This document shows, one piece after another, positions 4,778 to 31,396 of a stretch of 64,000 nucleotides of DNA; position 1 is the first letter of the stretch; each line of letters begins with the position of its first letter. Position numbers and translations under genes: made by a program. This DNA is from Methanocaldococcus vulcanius M7 (GTDB lineage: Archaea > AGJL01 > Methanococci > Methanococcales > Methanocaldococcaceae). The DNA is taken from positions 1,116,001 through 1,180,000 of the forward strand of contig NC_013407.1 in NCBI RefSeq assembly GCF_000024625.1, given 5' to 3'. Under the pieces are notes generated by a model. It did not search any database. It was not told where the DNA came from and saw nothing but the letters and a program-made list of their open reading frames with translations.

Positions 4778-5137
4778 TAATAATCACCATGAACTTACCA
4801 TCTGTTTTCTCTTTTTTCTTTTATCACTTATTAAATTTTTTAATTTTTTAATTTTTTGTTGAGTGTATCTAATGTCAAAGGATATGATGATTATCCTTTA
4901 CATCAACTTTTATTAAGATGACCCTTACACTTAATATTAAAACCCAATATAACAACCTATTAAAACTAAGATTATTTTTGAACATAAATATTTTTAAAGT
5001 TTAAATACATATCCGAATATAATTATATAATAAATAATAAATCTTCCGACAGAACCGTTAAGTATATATAGTAGTTATTTTTTATTTTTGAGGTTCTACA
5101 AATTATCACAACCCGAACGAAAAGAGCGAAAGGTGAA
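4778..5137. promoter_or_regulatory. 360-bp divergent control region between trpE and the CRISPR-Cas operon
   Basis: No gene is seen here. Reading toward trpE there is an 8-bp perfect inverted repeat, AAAGGATA (4877-4884) and TATCCTTT (4892-4899), about 100 bp before the trpE ATG. Its trpE-sense arm contains AGGATAATCATC, which recurs upstream of tyrA. Toward the cas genes there is a strong TATA element, AGTATATATAG at 5061-5071, followed by a roughly 65-nt leader and AAAGGTGAA before the ATG at 5138. Operator function for the palindrome is inference. Confidence 0.6.
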
Positions 5138-24230: not shown

Positions 24231-24725
24231 ATGAAAAAGATAATCATGACAAACTTTAACTGCGATAACTGTGGGGACTGTGTAAAAGCATGCATGGAAA
24301 AAAACAAAGTTGGAAGAATTGCAATAATGCAGAAAGAAGATAAATATATCCCAATAATCTGCCAACACTGTGCATCCGCTCCATGTAAAGAGGTCTGTCC
24401 CGTCTCAGCAATTGAGCATAAAGATGGATACGTTTACTTAAACGAAGATATATGTATTGGTTGTGGTTTGTGTGCTTTGGCATGTCCATTCGGAGCTATA
24501 AGTATGGAAGATAAAGCATACAAGTGTATTTTGTGTAATGGAGAAGAACCTGCCTGTGTTAAAGCATGTTCAAAGAGATGTTTGGAGTTAGTTAACGTAA
24601 ACGACCTTGTATTTATAAAGAGAGATAAAACATTGGAGTTATTTAGCAAGATGTCATTTCCATCCACAACTTCAGATAACTCATTAATTTCAAAAATAAC
24701 AATAAATTCAAAAGTGCAACCTTAA
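24231..24725 (+). CDS. porE: Ferredoxin-like accessory subunit PorE
   Basis: 164 residues with four cysteine clusters: [39 protein letters not shown] and CILCNGEEPACVKAC, as in polyferredoxin HycB/PorE types. The C-terminal 40 residues are low-complexity Ser/Lys/Asn. In methanococci porE and porF follow porCDAB and help route electrons to the oxidoreductase. The ribosome binding site is AGGGGTGATT. A 267-bp AT-rich gap after porB may contain a separate promoter. 44 bp of this gene (24459-24502) are identical to porF. Confidence 0.88.
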   Translation: MKKIIMTNFNCDNCGDCVKACMEKNKVGRIAIMQKEDKYIPIICQHCASAPCKEVCPVSAIEHKDGYVYLNEDICIGCGLCALACPFGAISMEDKAYKCILCNGEEPACVKACSKRCLELVNVNDLVFIKRDKTLELFSKMSFPSTTSDNSLISKITINSKVQP

Positions 24726-24859: not shown

Positions 24860-25273
24860 ATGGTGGTAGTAAATGTTGGTTCTTGTGTTGGATGTAGGAG
24901 ATGCGAAAGAAGTTGCCCAATAAATGGAATTATATTTGAAAATCTTCCAATAAAATGTATGCATTGTGATAAAAACCCTTGCCTTTATGCTTGCCCTGAA
25001 AATGCCATAGAAAGAATAAACAATAAAGTCGTTGTTATAGAAGAAAAATGTATCGGTTGTGGTTTGTGTGCTTTGGCATGTCCATTCGGAGCTATAAGAA
25101 TTGATGGAGTTGCTTTAAAGTGCAATGGATGTTATAAGAGAGATGTAGAAGTATGTAAAGAAGTTTGCCCAACAGGAGCAATAGATCACCTTGAAGATCT
25201 ACTTTGCAGTAAGTTGGAGAATACTCTTAACAAATTTAGTAAACTTCATGCGTTATATGCGAAGATGAGATAA
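24860..25273 (+). CDS. porF: Ferredoxin-like accessory subunit PorF
   Basis: 137 residues. It is a paralogue of PorE with cysteine clusters [40 protein letters not shown] and [17 protein letters not shown], so four [4Fe-4S] clusters are expected. The segment around the third cluster is identical in DNA to porE (25055-25098). It ends the por cluster and is followed by a 376-bp gap before fdhA. The ribosome binding site is TTTGGTGAAA. Confidence 0.88.
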
Positions 25274-25559
25274 TACTTTTTTTAATTTTTTCAGTTGTTT
25301 ATCATTAGAAGTATTTTAATTCAAATTATTTGTTTTAAAATTTACAATATCATCTACATTTACATCTTTCATTTATAAATTTCATTATAGTGATATAAGT
25401 TATAACAATTAGATTGAAGCAAATTTTTGATAACAAATTTATTTTATAACCAAACAATATATAAGAAAATCATTTATAATCCTCCATTAATTAAAATTAA
25501 CAACAATAACAATGAAACTTTTAAAAATTAGAAAGATAATAGTAAATACAGCAAGCACC

Positions 25560-25594
25560 CGCTACTCTGCCAACCTGTAAAGGAGCAGGTAGCG
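25560..25594 (+). promoter_or_regulatory. Archaeal SECIS element in the fdhA 5' leader
   Basis: The fold is: CGCTAC (25560-25565) with GTAGCG (25589-25594); a bulged T; CTGC (25567-25570) with GCAG (25585-25588); an asymmetric internal loop CAA / A; a 3-bp stem CCT (25574-25576) with AGG (25581-25583); and a GTAA (GNRA-type) tetraloop. Archaeal SECIS elements have a GAA / A internal loop below a short GC-rich stem, so this fits apart from C in the first loop position. A 5' leader position is known for M. jannaschii fdhA, whereas other archaeal SECIS elements are in 3' UTRs. Confidence 0.85.
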
Positions 25595-25599
25595 AAAAA

Positions 25600-25615
25600 A
25601 GATCCGAAGCACGCA
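25600..25615 (+). promoter_or_regulatory. Leader segment perfectly complementary to fdhA coding sequence after the UGA
   Basis: AGATCCGAAGCACGCA, six bases after the SECIS hairpin, is the exact reverse complement of TGCGTGCTTCGGATCT at 26069-26084. The 16-bp pairing would be inside one mRNA and lies 26 nt beyond the Sec UGA. Its role is inference; the complementarity itself is directly visible. Confidence 0.7.
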
Positions 25616-25649
25616 AACTAAATATTTTCAATTTAAAAGGTGAGAAATA

Positions 25650-27683
25650 ATGGAATTCAAAGTAGTAAATACAATCTGCCCGTATTGTGGGGTTGGTTGT
25701 GGAGTTGGTCTTGTTGTTAAAAATAATAAAGTTGTTGGGGTCTATCCTAACAAAAGACATCCTATAAACGAAGGAAAATTATGTGCAAAAGGAAACTATT
25801 GCTATCAATTTATACACAATAAAGATCGATTAAAAAAGCCATTAATAAAAAAAGAAAGTGGATTTTCAGAAATATCTTATAAAAAGGCCTTAGAACTCGT
25901 AGCTGAAAATTTAAAGAACTTTAAAGATGAGATAGGTTTTTTCTCGTCTGCAAGATGCACGAATGAGGAAAACTATATTACTCAAAAATTTGCACGAGTG
26001 GTTTTAAAAACAAACAACATCGATCACTGTGCACGATTATGACACTCAGCAACCGTTAGCGGAATGAGTGCGTGCTTCGGATCTGGTGCTATGACCAACA
26101 CAATTGAGGATATTAAGCAAGCAAACTGTATCTTAATTATAGGATCTAATACATTTGAACAACACCCTCTAATTGCAAGAATAATAATGAAAGCCAAAGA
26201 TAAAGGGGCTAAGATAATTACCATAGATCCGAGAAAAACGATAACAGCAAAAAACTCTGATTTACATCTTCAAATAACTCCAGGAACTAATGTTGCTTTA
26301 ATAAACTCACTAATGCATGTTATTATAGAAAAAGGACTAATTGACGAAGAATTCATAAAAAAAAGAACTGAGGGGTTTGAAAAGTTAAAAGAGGTTGTTA
26401 AAAACTATCCTCCGAAAATTGTTTCAAAGATATGCGGAATTGATGAAGAGGCAATAATTAGAACTGCCGAGATCTATGGAGGTGCTGAAAGAGCGAGTAT
26501 AATATACTGCATGGGAATAACACAATTCACACACGGAGTTGAGGCAGTTAAAGCATTGTGTAATTTAGCCATGATCACTGGAAATATAGGAAAAGAAGGA
26601 ACAGGAGTTAATCCATTAAGGGGGCAGAATAACGTTCAAGGAGCTTGTGATATGGGTGCACTTCCAGACCTTCTACCTGGCTATAAAAAAGTAGATCTCC
26701 ACTATTCAGAATTCGAAGAACTATGGAAAACTGAACTCAACCCAGATCCTGGGTTAACAATTCCTGAGATGATAGATAAATCCGGAAAAGAAATTAAATG
26801 CCTATATATCATAGGAGAAAATCCAATGGTTTCAGATCCAAACATTAAGCATGTTGAAAAGGCATTAAAAAATCTGGACTTTTTAGTAGTTCAAGATATA
26901 TTTTTAACAGAAACTGCTAAGATGGCAGATGTTGTTCTTCCAACAAAATGCTGGGCTGAGAAAGACGGAACATTTACAAACACCGAAAGAAGAGTTCAAC
27001 TCATAAATAAAGCGATTGATACTGATCTACCAAGTGATTGGGAGATAATAAAAAAGTTGTCCGAAAAACTTGGATTTAGTGATAAGTTCAACTACAACAC
27101 TTCACAAGACATTTTCAACGAAATAAGGAAAGTTGTGCCACAGTATAGGGGTATAAGTTATGAACGATTAAAAAAAGGAGGAATTCACTATCCTTGTTTC
27201 AATGAGGATGATGAAGGAGTTAAGATCCTATATAGAGACAAGTTTTTAACAAGTAATGGAAAGGGTAAGATTCTACCAGTTGAGTATAGAGAAATTTCAG
27301 AATTGCCAAATGATAAATTCCCATTTATCTTAACAACTGGAAGGATAGTGTTTCACTACCACACTGGAACGATGACTCGTAGGTGTAAAAACTTAACTGA
27401 GGAAATAAACGAGGCATTTGTGGAGATAAATAGTGAAGATGCTAAATCATTAAAAATTGAAAATTGGGACTTTGTTAAAATAGTTTCTAAGAGAGGAGAG
27501 GTTATTGCAAGAGCAAGAATAACTGATGATATTAAAAAAGGTGTTGTTTTTATGCCATTTCACTTCTCAGAGGCAAATCCAAATCTTATAACCAATGATG
27601 CGTTAGATAAGGAATGTAAGATACCAGAATTAAAAGCTTGTGCAGTTAATATACTAAAAATCGAAACTAAAAATAAAAAATAA
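25650..27683 (+). CDS. fdhA: Formate dehydrogenase catalytic subunit, selenocysteine-containing
   Basis: 677 residues if UGA at 26040-26042 is read as selenocysteine (U131). Both sides of the UGA are in one frame and form one intact protein: [17 protein letters not shown] and [14 protein letters not shown] bind the [4Fe-4S] cluster; [24 protein letters not shown] holds the Mo/W-ligating Sec; and molybdopterin-binding segments ([21 protein letters not shown]-like [50 protein letters not shown]) follow. It oxidises formate to CO2. The 5' SECIS supports Sec insertion. No fdhB is adjacent, so the electron-transfer partner is encoded elsewhere. A pseudogene reading is unlikely since every motif is intact. 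Confidence 0.95.
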
Positions 27684-27744: not shown

Positions 27745-28512
27745 ATGAGCGGATTTGAGGAATATGCAGAGGAATACGATAGATGGTTTGATGAAAATGA
27801 AATTATCTATAAATCAGAAATTGAAGCATTAAAAAGACATATTCCAAAGGGAAAAGGTTTAGAAATTGGAGTTGGAACCGGTAGATTTGCTAAACCATTT
27901 AATATAAAGATTGGTGTTGATATATCTAAAAAAATGGCTGAAATAGCTAAAAAAAGGGGTATTGATGTTATAATAGCAAGAGGAGAAGATTTGCCATTTA
28001 ACGACAATGAGTTTGATTTTGTATTAATAAATACTGTCTTAGAATTTTCTGAAGATCCAAAAAAGATGCTAAAAGAGGCAAAGAGAGTTTTAAAGAACGG
28101 TGGAAAAATAATTATAGGCATTATAGATAAAGATAGCTTTTTAGGAAAAATGTATGAAAAAAAGAAACAAAAAAGTAAATTTTATAAGGATGCCAATTTT
28201 TTATCAGCGAGAGAAGTTATAGAAATGCTAAAAGAATTGGGATTTAAAAATATAAAAGCCACACAAACAATTTTTAAAGGAATAGATAAAGCTGATAAAG
28301 TTAAAGATGATAAAAACGTAAAATTATTGAAAGAAACCCCTTCCCGTAGTAGTAATTATAACCAAATCTTAGATGGGACATTAATTGAGGTTGAAAACCC
28401 TAATTTAATGGACGTCGGGTATCTCAATAAGGCAGAGCCCTATGAAGTTAAAGAGGGTTATGGAGAAGGAGGATTTGTAGCAATATCTGCTGAGGTGTGC
28501 AAAGATGGATAA
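27745..28512 (+). CDS. Class I SAM-dependent methyltransferase with an unusual C-terminal insertion
   Basis: 255 residues. Rossmann motifs are GKGLEIGVGTGRF (SAM loop), IGVDISKKM, ARGEDLPFNDNEFDFVLINTVLEF and RVLKNGGKIIIGII, typical of Methyltransf_11. Small-molecule methyltransferases of this type usually end with a PxEGYGxGGFV segment shortly after the last core helix; here EGYGEGGFVAIS is present, but about 45 residues (roughly 186-232, from 28300 to 28440) come before it and look unlike the rest, with Arg CGT and other uncommon codons. The substrate is unknown. The ribosome binding site is TAGGGGGACT. The 3' end overlaps the helicase gene by 8 bp. Confidence 0.75.
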   Translation: MSGFEEYAEEYDRWFDENEIIYKSEIEALKRHIPKGKGLEIGVGTGRFAKPFNIKIGVDISKKMAEIAKKRGIDVIIARGEDLPFNDNEFDFVLINTVLEFSEDPKKMLKEAKRVLKNGGKIIIGIIDKDSFLGKMYEKKKQKSKFYKDANFLSAREVIEMLKELGFKNIKATQTIFKGIDKADKVKDDKNVKLLKETPSRSSNYNQILDGTLIEVENPNLMDVGYLNKAEPYEVKEGYGEGGFVAISAEVCKDG

Positions 28513-31396
28513 AATTACTAAGGTTTTAAATGATTTTGGTATCTCAGAATTGAGGCCTCCTCAAAAAAAGGCATTAGAAATGGGATTATTAGACAAAAAT
28601 AAAAATTTTATAATATCTATTCCAACAGCTTCCGGAAAAACACTTATTGGAGAGATTGCATTAATAAACCATCTATTAGATGATAATTTAACCCCCACTG
28701 GAAGAAAAGGCATATTTATAGTGCCTTTGAAAGCACTCGCATCTGAAAAATATGAAGAATTTAAAAATAAGTATGAGAAATTTGGGTTGAGAATCGCACT
28801 TTCCATAGGGGATTATGATGAGGAAGAAGACCTTAGCAAATACGATTTAATTATAACAACGGCAGAGAAACTCGATTCGCTATGGAGGCATAAAATCAGC
28901 TGGATCGATGATGTCTCTGTTGTTATTGTTGATGAAATTCATCTAATAAACGATGAAACAAGAGGAGGGACATTAGAGATCTTACTAACAAAATTGAAAG
29001 AATATAACATACAGATTATTGGATTATCTGCAACAATTGGAAACCCCGATGAGTTGGCTGAGTGGTTAAACGCTGAACTTGTAGTTGATGATTGGAGACC
29101 AATTGAATTAAAAAAAGGAGTTTATAGAAATGGTGTTATTGAATATATCAACGGATCTGTAAAAGAGATAAAAGTAGTCAACAGTGATGTTTACAGTTTA
29201 GTAGTGGATTGTATAAAAGATGGAGGCAGTTGTTTAGTGTTTTGTAATACCAAAAGAGGAGCTGTAAACGAGGCAAAAAACCTTAATTTAACAAAATTTT
29301 TAAGTGAAGAAGAGCGATCAAAATTAAAAGAAGTTGCAGAAGAAGTGCTGTCAATTTTAGAACCCCCTACTGAGATGTGTAAAACACTTGCAGAGTGTAT
29401 TTTACAGGGATCTGCCTTTCATCATGCTGGTTTAACCTATCAACATAGAAAGATAGTAGAGGATGCTTTTAGAAAACGATTAATAAAGGTTATATGTTGC
29501 ACTCCAACACTATGTTTAAATGCAAAGACAGAAATACTTCAAGAAAATGGATATAGAAAAATAACTGAGTTAAATAAAAATGAGAAGATATTTGCTCTAT
29601 GTGGAGGAAAAATAAAACCAATCGGGAGATGGAAAATTCATAAGACACCACAACACGACTATAACATAACAATAAAAACTGAGAATGGATTAGAGATAAC
29701 AACTACTCCAAATCACATATTTTTAGTTAAAAATGGAAAAAGCATAAAGGAAAAGGAAGCAAAAGATCTAAAAATTGGAGATCTTGTTGCAACCGTTGGC
29801 AAAATAATAGTAGATGAGGACATTAACACATCAAACTTTGTTAAATTTCCGATACGTCGTCTTTCTCAGTTTATTGCAGAGACATTCAATTCAAAGGGAG
29901 TAATTAACAATTCCATTGAGATTTATTCAACGTCCGAATTATTTATTAAAAGATTACAAGTTGCATTATTGAGATTTGGAATACATTCACAGATCGAAAT
30001 TAAAAACTCAGATAAAAAAGATGATAAAACATACCTATTAAAAATCTCAGATCTTGAAGGTTTAAAATTATTTTATAAGAATTTTCCAATTGACTTAAAA
30101 GAAAAAGAGAAGCTTTTCTACCTTATCAAAAAGAAAATCAACAATAAGCCATATGAAGATAACTTAGAGCATATTGATTTTGATAACTCCTTCAATAACA
30201 TAGCAATCTGTTGGAAAAAGATTTTAGAAATTAAAAAAGTGAAAGTAGAAGATGAGTATGTGTATGATATAGAACTTCCAAATGATGGAAGCAATGATCA
30301 CTACTTCGTAGCAAATGGATTTGTTGTTCATAACTCCGCTGGTTTAAACTTACCTTGTAGAAGAGCAATAATTAAAGATCTAATGAGATTTACAAAAACA
30401 GGAATGAGATATATCCCAATAATGGAAATACAACAATGTATTGGTAGGGCAGGAAGACCAGGTTTAGATCCATATGGAGAAGGAATCGTTATTGCAAAAA
30501 ATGATCGGGACTATTTAAGGGCTTATCAAACATTAACTCAGAAACCTGAGCCGATCTATTCAAAATTATCAAATTATGCTGTTCTTAGAACGCAGTTATT
30601 GGGGTTAATCTCTACAGGAGAGATAAAAGATGAGTATGATTTAGAATGGTTTGTAAGAAATACCTTCTATGCTCATCAATACGGGAACTTGAAGAAAGTT
30701 GCTAAAAATATAATGGAGATTATCCAGTTTTTAGAAGAAAACGAGTTTATTGTTGGTTTTACAGCAACAGAACTGGGTAAAAGGATTTCTGAATTGTATA
30801 TAGATCCGCTCTCAGCGAAGTATATAATAGATGGATTAAATGAAATGGAAGTGGAGCATGATCTCTACTATCTCTATTTAATATCAAGAACTCTGGAAAT
30901 GACGCCAAATTTAAGGGTTTATAGATCTGAAGAAATGAGTTTAATGGATGAAATGGAATCATTAAAAATAAAAAACTTTAATATTGAGGACTTAGAAGCG
31001 TTTAAAACAGCAAAAATGCTTTATGATTGGATTAACGAGGTTCCAGAGGATAAAATATTAGAAAAATATAAAATTGAGCCGGGAATTTTAAGGTATAAAG
31101 TTGAAAATGCTCGATGGATGATGCATTCGTTAAAAGAAATTGCTAAATTACTAAACTTAAATTCAGAAATTCCAGAAAAGTTGGAAATAAGATTGGAATA
31201 TGGGGCTAAGGAGGATATTATCGAATTGCTAAATATAAAATATATTGGAAGAGTAAGGGCAAGAAAACTATACAATGAAGGGATTAGATGTGTTGAGGAT
31301 ATATTAAAAAATCCTGAAAAGGTTGTTCATATTGTTGGACGAAAAACTGCTGAAAAAATCTTAAAGGAAATATTAAAAGAGAAAGAAAACCTTTAA
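28505..31396 (+). CDS. Hel308-type DNA helicase precursor, interrupted by an intein
   Basis: 963 residues as translated; about 689 after removing a 274-residue intein (337-610), the normal Hel308/Hjm length. Superfamily 2 motifs are IPTASGKTLIGEIAL (Walker A), VIVDEIHLIND (DEIH box), LSATIGN (motif III), GSAFHHAGL (motif IV region), CTPTL+SAGLNLP (motif V region, split by the intein) and QCIGRAGRPGLD (motif VI). A C-terminal helix-hairpin-helix (KYIGRVRARKLY, HIVGRKTAEKIL) completes the domain set. It unwinds forks and lagging strands in replication restart. It overlaps the methyltransferase gene by 8 bp. The M. jannaschii homologue (MJ1124) also carries an intein. Confidence 0.95.
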   Translation: MDKITKVLNDFGISELRPPQKKALEMGLLDKNKNFIISIPTASGKTLIGEIALINHLLDDNLTPTGRKGIFIVPLKALASEKYEEFKNKYEKFGLRIALSIGDYDEEEDLSKYDLIITTAEKLDSLWRHKISWIDDVSVVIVDEIHLINDETRGGTLEILLTKLKEYNIQIIGLSATIGNPDELAEWLNAELVVDDWRPIELKKGVYRNGVIEYINGSVKEIKVVNSDVYSLVVDCIKDGGSCLVFCNTKRGAVNEAKNLNLTKFLSEEERSKLKEVAEEVLSILEPPTEMCKTLAECILQGSAFHHAGLTYQHRKIVEDAFRKRLIKVICCTPTLCLNAKTEILQENGYRKITELNKNEKIFALCGGKIKPIGRWKIHKTPQHDYNITIKTENGLEITTTPNHIFLVKNGKSIKEKEAKDLKIGDLVATVGKIIVDEDINTSNFVKFPIRRLSQFIAETFNSKGVINNSIEIYSTSELFIKRLQVALLRFGIHSQIEIKNSDKKDDKTYLLKISDLEGLKLFYKNFPIDLKEKEKLFYLIKKKINNKPYEDNLEHIDFDNSFNNIAICWKKILEIKKVKVEDEYVYDIELPNDGSNDHYFVANGFVVHNSAGLNLPCRRAIIKDLMRFTKTGMRYIPIMEIQQCIGRAGRPGLDPYGEGIVIAKNDRDYLRAYQTLTQKPEPIYSKLSNYAVLRTQLLGLISTGEIKDEYDLEWFVRNTFYAHQYGNLKKVAKNIMEIIQFLEENEFIVGFTATELGKRISELYIDPLSAKYIIDGLNEMEVEHDLYYLYLISRTLEMTPNLRVYRSEEMSLMDEMESLKIKNFNIEDLEAFKTAKMLYDWINEVPEDKILEKYKIEPGILRYKVENARWMMHSLKEIAKLLNLNSEIPEKLEIRLEYGAKEDIIELLNIKYIGRVRARKLYNEGIRCVEDILKNPEKVVHIVGRKTAEKILKEILKEKENL
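29513..30334 (+). mobile_element. Intein in the Hel308 helicase (274 residues), endonuclease domain degenerate
   Basis: The intein starts at Cys337 (CLNAKTEIL, block A), has TTPNHIFLV (block B with its His) and ends YFVANGFVVHN (blocks F/G, penultimate His, last Asn610), followed by extein Ser611. The residues for self-splicing are therefore intact. The middle (about 440-560) has one LAGLIDADG-like segment, LSQFIAETFNSKGVI, in which the acidic residue before Gly is Lys, and I see no clear second copy. With only about 120 residues there, homing activity is probably lost. It sits in the conserved motif between CTPTL and SAGLN. Confidence 0.92.

Follow-up and report, generated by a model that had tools for sequence, protein, structure and literature searches.

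In Methanococcales, antisense segments beside SECIS elements probably serve as address tethers through which a distant SECIS reaches its own UGA codon. In the window analysed here, a 64-kb stretch of the Methanocaldococcus vulcanius M7 genome, the SECIS hairpin in the leader of fdhA lies between two arms that are complementary to the coding sequence just past the selenocysteine UGA (Table 1), and addresses of the same design accompany the SECIS elements of fwuB, selD and hdrA. By sequence, the case is based on complementarity, conservation, compensatory change, predicted stability, and the tie of the pairing to the presence of a SECIS. There is good support for selection acting on the pairing; that the duplex forms in cells and serves for tethering is inferred.

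The fdhA leader and its target in the coding sequence

Gene names were assigned from similarity and position. Translated with TGA as U, fdhA encodes a protein of 677 aa with selenocysteine at U131, and the in-frame TGA is present in all fdhA orthologues (24 genomes). Two small, CxxCxxC-rich, ferredoxin-like ORFs (24231-24725 and 24860-25273) lie directly upstream of the fdhA leader, and a large helicase-like ORF with an apparent intein, judged by eye from the translation, occupies positions 28505-31396 of the window.

Table 1. Features of fdhA and its leader in the window of Mc. vulcanius M7
Feature	Position	Strand	Basis or remark
fdhA, formate dehydrogenase alpha subunit with selenocysteine	25650..27683	+	open with TGA=U
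Selenocysteine UGA of fdhA	26040..26042	+	in-frame, common to orthologues
5' address arm, AGCACC	25554..25559	+	pairs with 26085-26090
Archaeal SECIS hairpin, CAA/A kink-turn-like motif	25560..25594	+	fold and alignment with relatives
A-rich linker, SECIS to 3' address arm	25595..25599	+	sequence (five A); A-rich in relatives also
3' address arm, AGATCCGAAGCACGCA	25600..25615	+	pairs with 26069-26084
Likely ribosome binding site of fdhA, AGGTGA	25638..25643	+	sequence; outside the duplex
Target of 3' address arm, coding side	26069..26084	+	26 nt after the UGA
Target of 5' address arm, GGTGCT, coding side	26085..26090	+	SECIS emerges at the 26084/26085 junction

The leader hairpin fits the archaeal SECIS form (CGCUAC.CUGC-CAA-CCU-GUAA-AGG-A-GCAG-GUAGCG) and folds at -19 kcal/mol (z -2.86) with 10 basal and 3 apical pairs. 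Archaeal SECIS elements have an asymmetric loop in which GAA faces A and the final two A residues of GAA are invariant; this loop is present as CAA/A in the window and as GAA/A in relatives, together with a stable basal stem and a short apical GC clamp. In an Rfam search of the whole window at the gathering threshold, tRNA was the sole match. Mc. vulcanius has been named as a CAA-for-GAA variant of the fdhA1 SECIS; this variant is reported to function at reduced capacity, and Sec insertion by the M. maripaludis fdhA1 element has been demonstrated in cells (PMC11881835).

The initial annotation had reported a perfect complementarity of 16 nt between the leader and the coding sequence, and a sequence search bore this out for the 3' arm and its target. 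Just these two places match in the 64-kb window when up to 3 mismatches are allowed (expected 0.08). The longest complement was 14 nt for shuffled leaders and 14-15 nt for other 150-nt/2-kb pairs in the window. Chance pairing had been called very unlikely; in the single sequence the match is unusual but not overwhelming, and it is the comparative data that settle its reality.

A second arm, overlooked in the initial annotation, lies 5' of the SECIS and pairs with the coding sequence immediately past the first target, so that an uninterrupted 22 nt of the coding strand would be bound. The SECIS would emerge where the two long-range helices meet, 43 nt past the UGA. When the stretch from the leader through 120 nt beyond the UGA was folded as an unconstrained ensemble, the pair probabilities of these helices averaged 0.94-0.96 at 37 C and 0.80-0.93 at 80 C. 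The likely ribosome binding site is left free, as had been proposed. A 3'-UTR partner for the fdhA target was also sought, and none was convincing.

The proposed geometry, in which folding brings the SECIS downstream of the UGA, agrees with that published for fdhA. In M. maripaludis fdhA1, ORF-complementary stretches of 7 and 10 nt flank the 5' SECIS, pairing of these flanks would put the SECIS 43 nt past the UGA, and the complementarity is conserved in Methanococcales and longer in thermophiles (PMC11881835, RNA Biology, Feb 2025). The window has the same gene, the same two ORF-complementary flanks, and the same 43-nt placement, so that the fdhA observation itself was already known, with its function left open in that report.

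Covariation of the fdhA pairing in Methanococcales

Orthologues were sampled from 36 genomes of the order, and second fdhA copies were added by a separate search. A phylum-wide genome search yielded the same 36 genomes, with Methanopyrus outside the sample. Covariation in related fdhA genes had been set beforehand as the test on which the pairing would stand or fall, and it was clear. Among 19 distinct genes, 91.6% of fdhA cells were paired, compared to 81.2 +/- 0.8 in shuffles and 28-47% when the partner was slid; 45 cells were changed on both sides, compared to 11.3 in shuffles. Both sides change in 11 of the 25 pairs (19 distinct rows). In the 5' arm, GCAC is invariant in the 19 distinct leaders, and the third pair covaries (A-U in 9, G-C in 9). 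The paired changes recur on a nucleotide tree built from the rest of the gene, on which pair 21 needs 5 leader, 5 coding, and 5 pair-state changes.

All 21 fdhA copies with a leader SECIS pair by both arms (the 3' arm is partial in L018), and these copies come from five genera, in agreement with the reported conservation of the fdhA1 flank pairing in Methanococcales. By contrast, such pairing was found in 0 of the 10 Sec fdhA copies without a leader SECIS (L020, L022, L023, and L033-L039). In two cases (L004 and L013), an ORF of about 118 aa lies between the SECIS and fdhA, and the SECIS is 448-460 nt ahead of the fdhA start codon. These genes retain 24 and 22 of the 25 pairs, respectively, and ensemble folding predicts their pairing with a probability of about 0.9-1.0 at 37 C (the value for the L018 3' arm is left out of the fold probabilities). 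The variable distance from SECIS to start codon and the constant target past the UGA fit a UGA-related role, and descent could also fix the coding target. Intervening-gene cases would fall outside the scope of PMC11881835, in which the transcript start was taken as 300 nt upstream of fdhA. The intervening ORF matched no Pfam family above cut-off, and some of its homologues elsewhere adjoin a shortened FdhA-like gene.

The second Sec fdhA of Methanococcus-type genomes (L033-L039) contains a SECIS-like coding hairpin, CAATACTTTT-GAA-GCT...AGC-A-AGAAGTATTG, about 102-145 nt after the UGA. Its apical pairs shift from GCT:AGC to GCA:TGC, and 11-13 of 3000 synonymous resamples gave an equally good hairpin; possibly, this is an archaeal SECIS within the coding region. 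The UGA-containing fdhA genes of L020, L022, and L023 show no recognisable SECIS within 1.5 kb and have in common a leader hairpin, AAGATG-TTAGCGGTGG-CATCTT, about 120 nt upstream of fdhA.

The coding side of the pairing had been noted for its GCG, TGC and TTC codons, unusual choices in this AT-rich sequence; the comparison did not favour strong synonymous constraint on it. Synonymous conservation there is 0.647 compared to a mean of 0.583, and 114 of 675 windows are at least as high. The lack of a strong excess implies that the leader follows the gene and that the gene is not frozen.

Addresses on the SECIS elements of fwuB, selD, and hdrA

The other selenoprotein genes were first examined as controls, by setting the sequence immediately after each UGA in this genome against its surroundings. 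Here, the fwuB SECIS lies in the 3' UTR, 1076 nt after the UGA, and is preceded by an 18-nt perfect address for UGA+26..+43. Across the order, 20 fwuB genes have addresses of 12-26 nt, with double changes in 9 pairs and 79.6% of cells paired, compared to 31-44% when slid. One pair takes the states AU, GC, CG, and UA and joins the third base of an Asp/Glu codon to the 3' UTR ~1 kb away. In ensemble folding, the mean probability of the fwuB pairing is 0.85-1.0 in seven genes and 0.59 in L094. Orthologues of fwuB that have the UGA and no nearby 3' SECIS (L089, L093, and L104) have no address. The 3' UTR of a Cys-type fwuB (L090) retains a 9-nt address and a SECIS-like remnant and is a fossil of the address system.

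The selD address, found in 15 Methanocaldococcus and Methanotorris-type genomes and in no others of the order, comprises 17-22 nt directed at UGA+10..+31 and includes the stop codon in some genomes; double changes occur in 7 pairs, and 93.4% of cells are paired, compared to 22-46% when slid. In 16 genomes, hdrA has an address of 12-28 nt before its own SECIS, with 87.5% paired compared to 25-45% when slid, and covariation is modest (double changes in 2 pairs). Ensemble folding of 1.1-1.5 kb gave mean probabilities of 0.92-1.0 at 37 C in the selD and hdrA genes tested. Addresses of fwuB, selD, and hdrA are typically 17-28 nt long, with targets 10-66 nt past their own UGA. By comparison with the 17-28 nt of most address genes, ordinary ORFs of the window reached complements of at most 12 nt in 190 tests.

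Since the 3'-UTR SECIS elements of these three genes pair likewise, the pairing is not confined to SECIS elements of the 5' UTR, for which the initial annotation had offered it as an explanation. Instead, the same design in fdhA and three further genes suggests a general address system for the right codon. The address adjoins the SECIS in fdhA and lies roughly 10-100 nt from it in fwuB, selD, and hdrA, which implies that exact placement is not conserved across genes. Moreover, tethering is not obligatory, because selD of Methanococcus and Methanothermococcus-type genomes has its SECIS about 1 kb away and no address. An address was likewise not found in vhuU, whose SECIS is 74 nt from the UGA. 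In vhuD of Methanocaldococcus and Methanotorris-type genomes, an 11-13-nt complement to UGA+48..+60 overlaps the coding end (L115, ~4925-4945); this match is within chance reach and is not claimed as an address.

In eight Methanocaldococcus genomes, the fwuB 3' UTR additionally bears TGCAACGCTAACCATCTTTGG(GG), an hdrA address of 21-23 nt that is perfectly complementary to hdrA at about UGA+10..+32 and overlaps the fwuB address by a G run. The hdrA target is 7.1-7.3 kb upstream, and the genes from hdrA to fwuB are co-directional with short gaps. In this genome, the 3' hairpin of hdrA itself no longer has the GAA/A motif and lacks an address, and among the strong SECIS elements of the region only that of fwuB carries the hdrA address. 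With the essential GAA/A missing from its own hairpin, hdrA of this organism would depend on the shared, far fwuB SECIS. The hairpin 3' of hdrA in L115 retains the outer AUGA/UGAU frame without the GAA/A motif. No address accompanies hdrA in L184, L187, and L188, and fwuB of the same genomes (L089, L093, and L104) has no nearby 3' SECIS. We judge the chances evenly balanced that antisense addresses form a general SECIS-to-UGA code, usable 5' or 3', in which the fwuB SECIS serves the UGAs of hdrA and fwuB kilobases apart on one polycistronic mRNA.

Proposed tethering, competing explanations, and known systems

We favour the interpretation that address tethers deliver the SECIS. In fdhA, the SECIS would be held between antisense arms of 6-11 nt (5') and about 9-17 nt (3'), both paired to a single uninterrupted coding stretch that starts 26 nt past the UGA. 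The duplex would fold the mRNA such that the SECIS is placed about 43 nt downstream of the UGA, presumably beyond the cover of a ribosome stalled there, and the SECIS with its Sec-tRNA deliverer could thus be presented to the waiting ribosome, after which translation past the UGA would melt the duplex. The device would extend more widely in Methanococcales, where the SECIS elements of fwuB, selD, and hdrA are each addressed to their own UGA region and that of fwuB may bear the addresses of two genes. Arm length is greater in hyperthermophiles, as would be expected if stability is required there. No SECIS-binding protein is known from archaea, and the covariation of addresses in four gene families suggests that base pairing could in itself match a SECIS to its UGA. 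Address pairing would explain a working 5' SECIS and would predict SECIS elements common to two genes.

That the UGA needs the pairing is not supported: in a beta-lactamase reporter in M. maripaludis the 5' SECIS worked with non-matching flanks (PMC11881835), and the address-less selD genes likewise argue against necessity. When the flanks matched, total activity was similar and mRNA was threefold lower, which amounts to about twofold higher activity per mRNA (PMC11881835). The geometry of the initial interpretation and the covariation test set for it are borne out; a solution special to a 5' SECIS, necessity, and strong constraint on the coding side are not supported.

The threefold loss of mRNA, together with the position of the duplex always just past the UGA, could also indicate that the duplex is real and selected mainly as a ribosome pause site or an mRNA-stability switch at the UGA, and not for SECIS delivery. 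This explanation is unlikely, since the antisense strand lies near the SECIS in every solid case and is absent where the SECIS is absent, and since the duplex starts anywhere from +10 to +38 after the UGA, with no fixed pause geometry. A relic, needed in ancestors (perhaps hyperthermophiles) and with little effect today, would be consistent with the mesophile reporter that works without pairing, and with the shorter arms and missing selD address in Methanococcus. However, ongoing compensatory change in fdhA, fwuB, and selD implies current selection, at least in thermophiles, and makes a relic quite improbable. Inverted repeats homogenised at the DNA level by gene conversion or template switching, with no RNA function, would account for perfect identity within many single genomes; they are highly implausible, since identity ends at the arm ends and is broken by the SECIS, the pairing includes G-U steps and single mismatches, the repeats are on the side of the gene where the SECIS is, 5' or 3', and ordinary genes lack them in the control. 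A chance match aided by the conserved active-site motif of FdhA that the coding side encodes has negligible probability, since shuffled leaders stop at 14 nt and leader and coding letters change together.

Relative to the open-licence PMC literature, the present comparison adds the covariation of fdhA, pairing across an intervening gene, the addresses of fwuB, selD, and hdrA, and the double-address fwuB 3' UTR. The main text of PMC11881835 presents predicted folds and a reporter and describes no covariation test; it reports no pairing for fwuB, selD, or hdrA, and the fwuB SECIS was tested there without mention in that text of an address. Reporter data had led to the fdhA flanks being regarded as dispensable, and covarying addresses bear on how a distant archaeal SECIS reaches its UGA.

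The fdhA leader element resembles the archaeal SECIS with its kink-turn-like GAA/A motif in hairpin anatomy and in its link to a gene with an in-frame UGA, and differs by its 5' position, CAA in place of GAA, and address arms outside the hairpin. Its likeness to the bacterial SECIS is one of functional placement downstream of the UGA, reached here by folding and not by sequence position, and the archaeal SECIS motif is unrelated. A bacterial-type hairpin right after the UGA (26043-26070), SECIS-like by eye, was rejected (segment z -0.43; not conserved in relatives). Finally, the tethering hypothesised for selenoprotein P of eukaryotes (eIF4A3; PMC5133445) shares the idea that a SECIS is delivered to a far UGA; there the tether is made through proteins, whereas here it would be made through base pairing in the mRNA.
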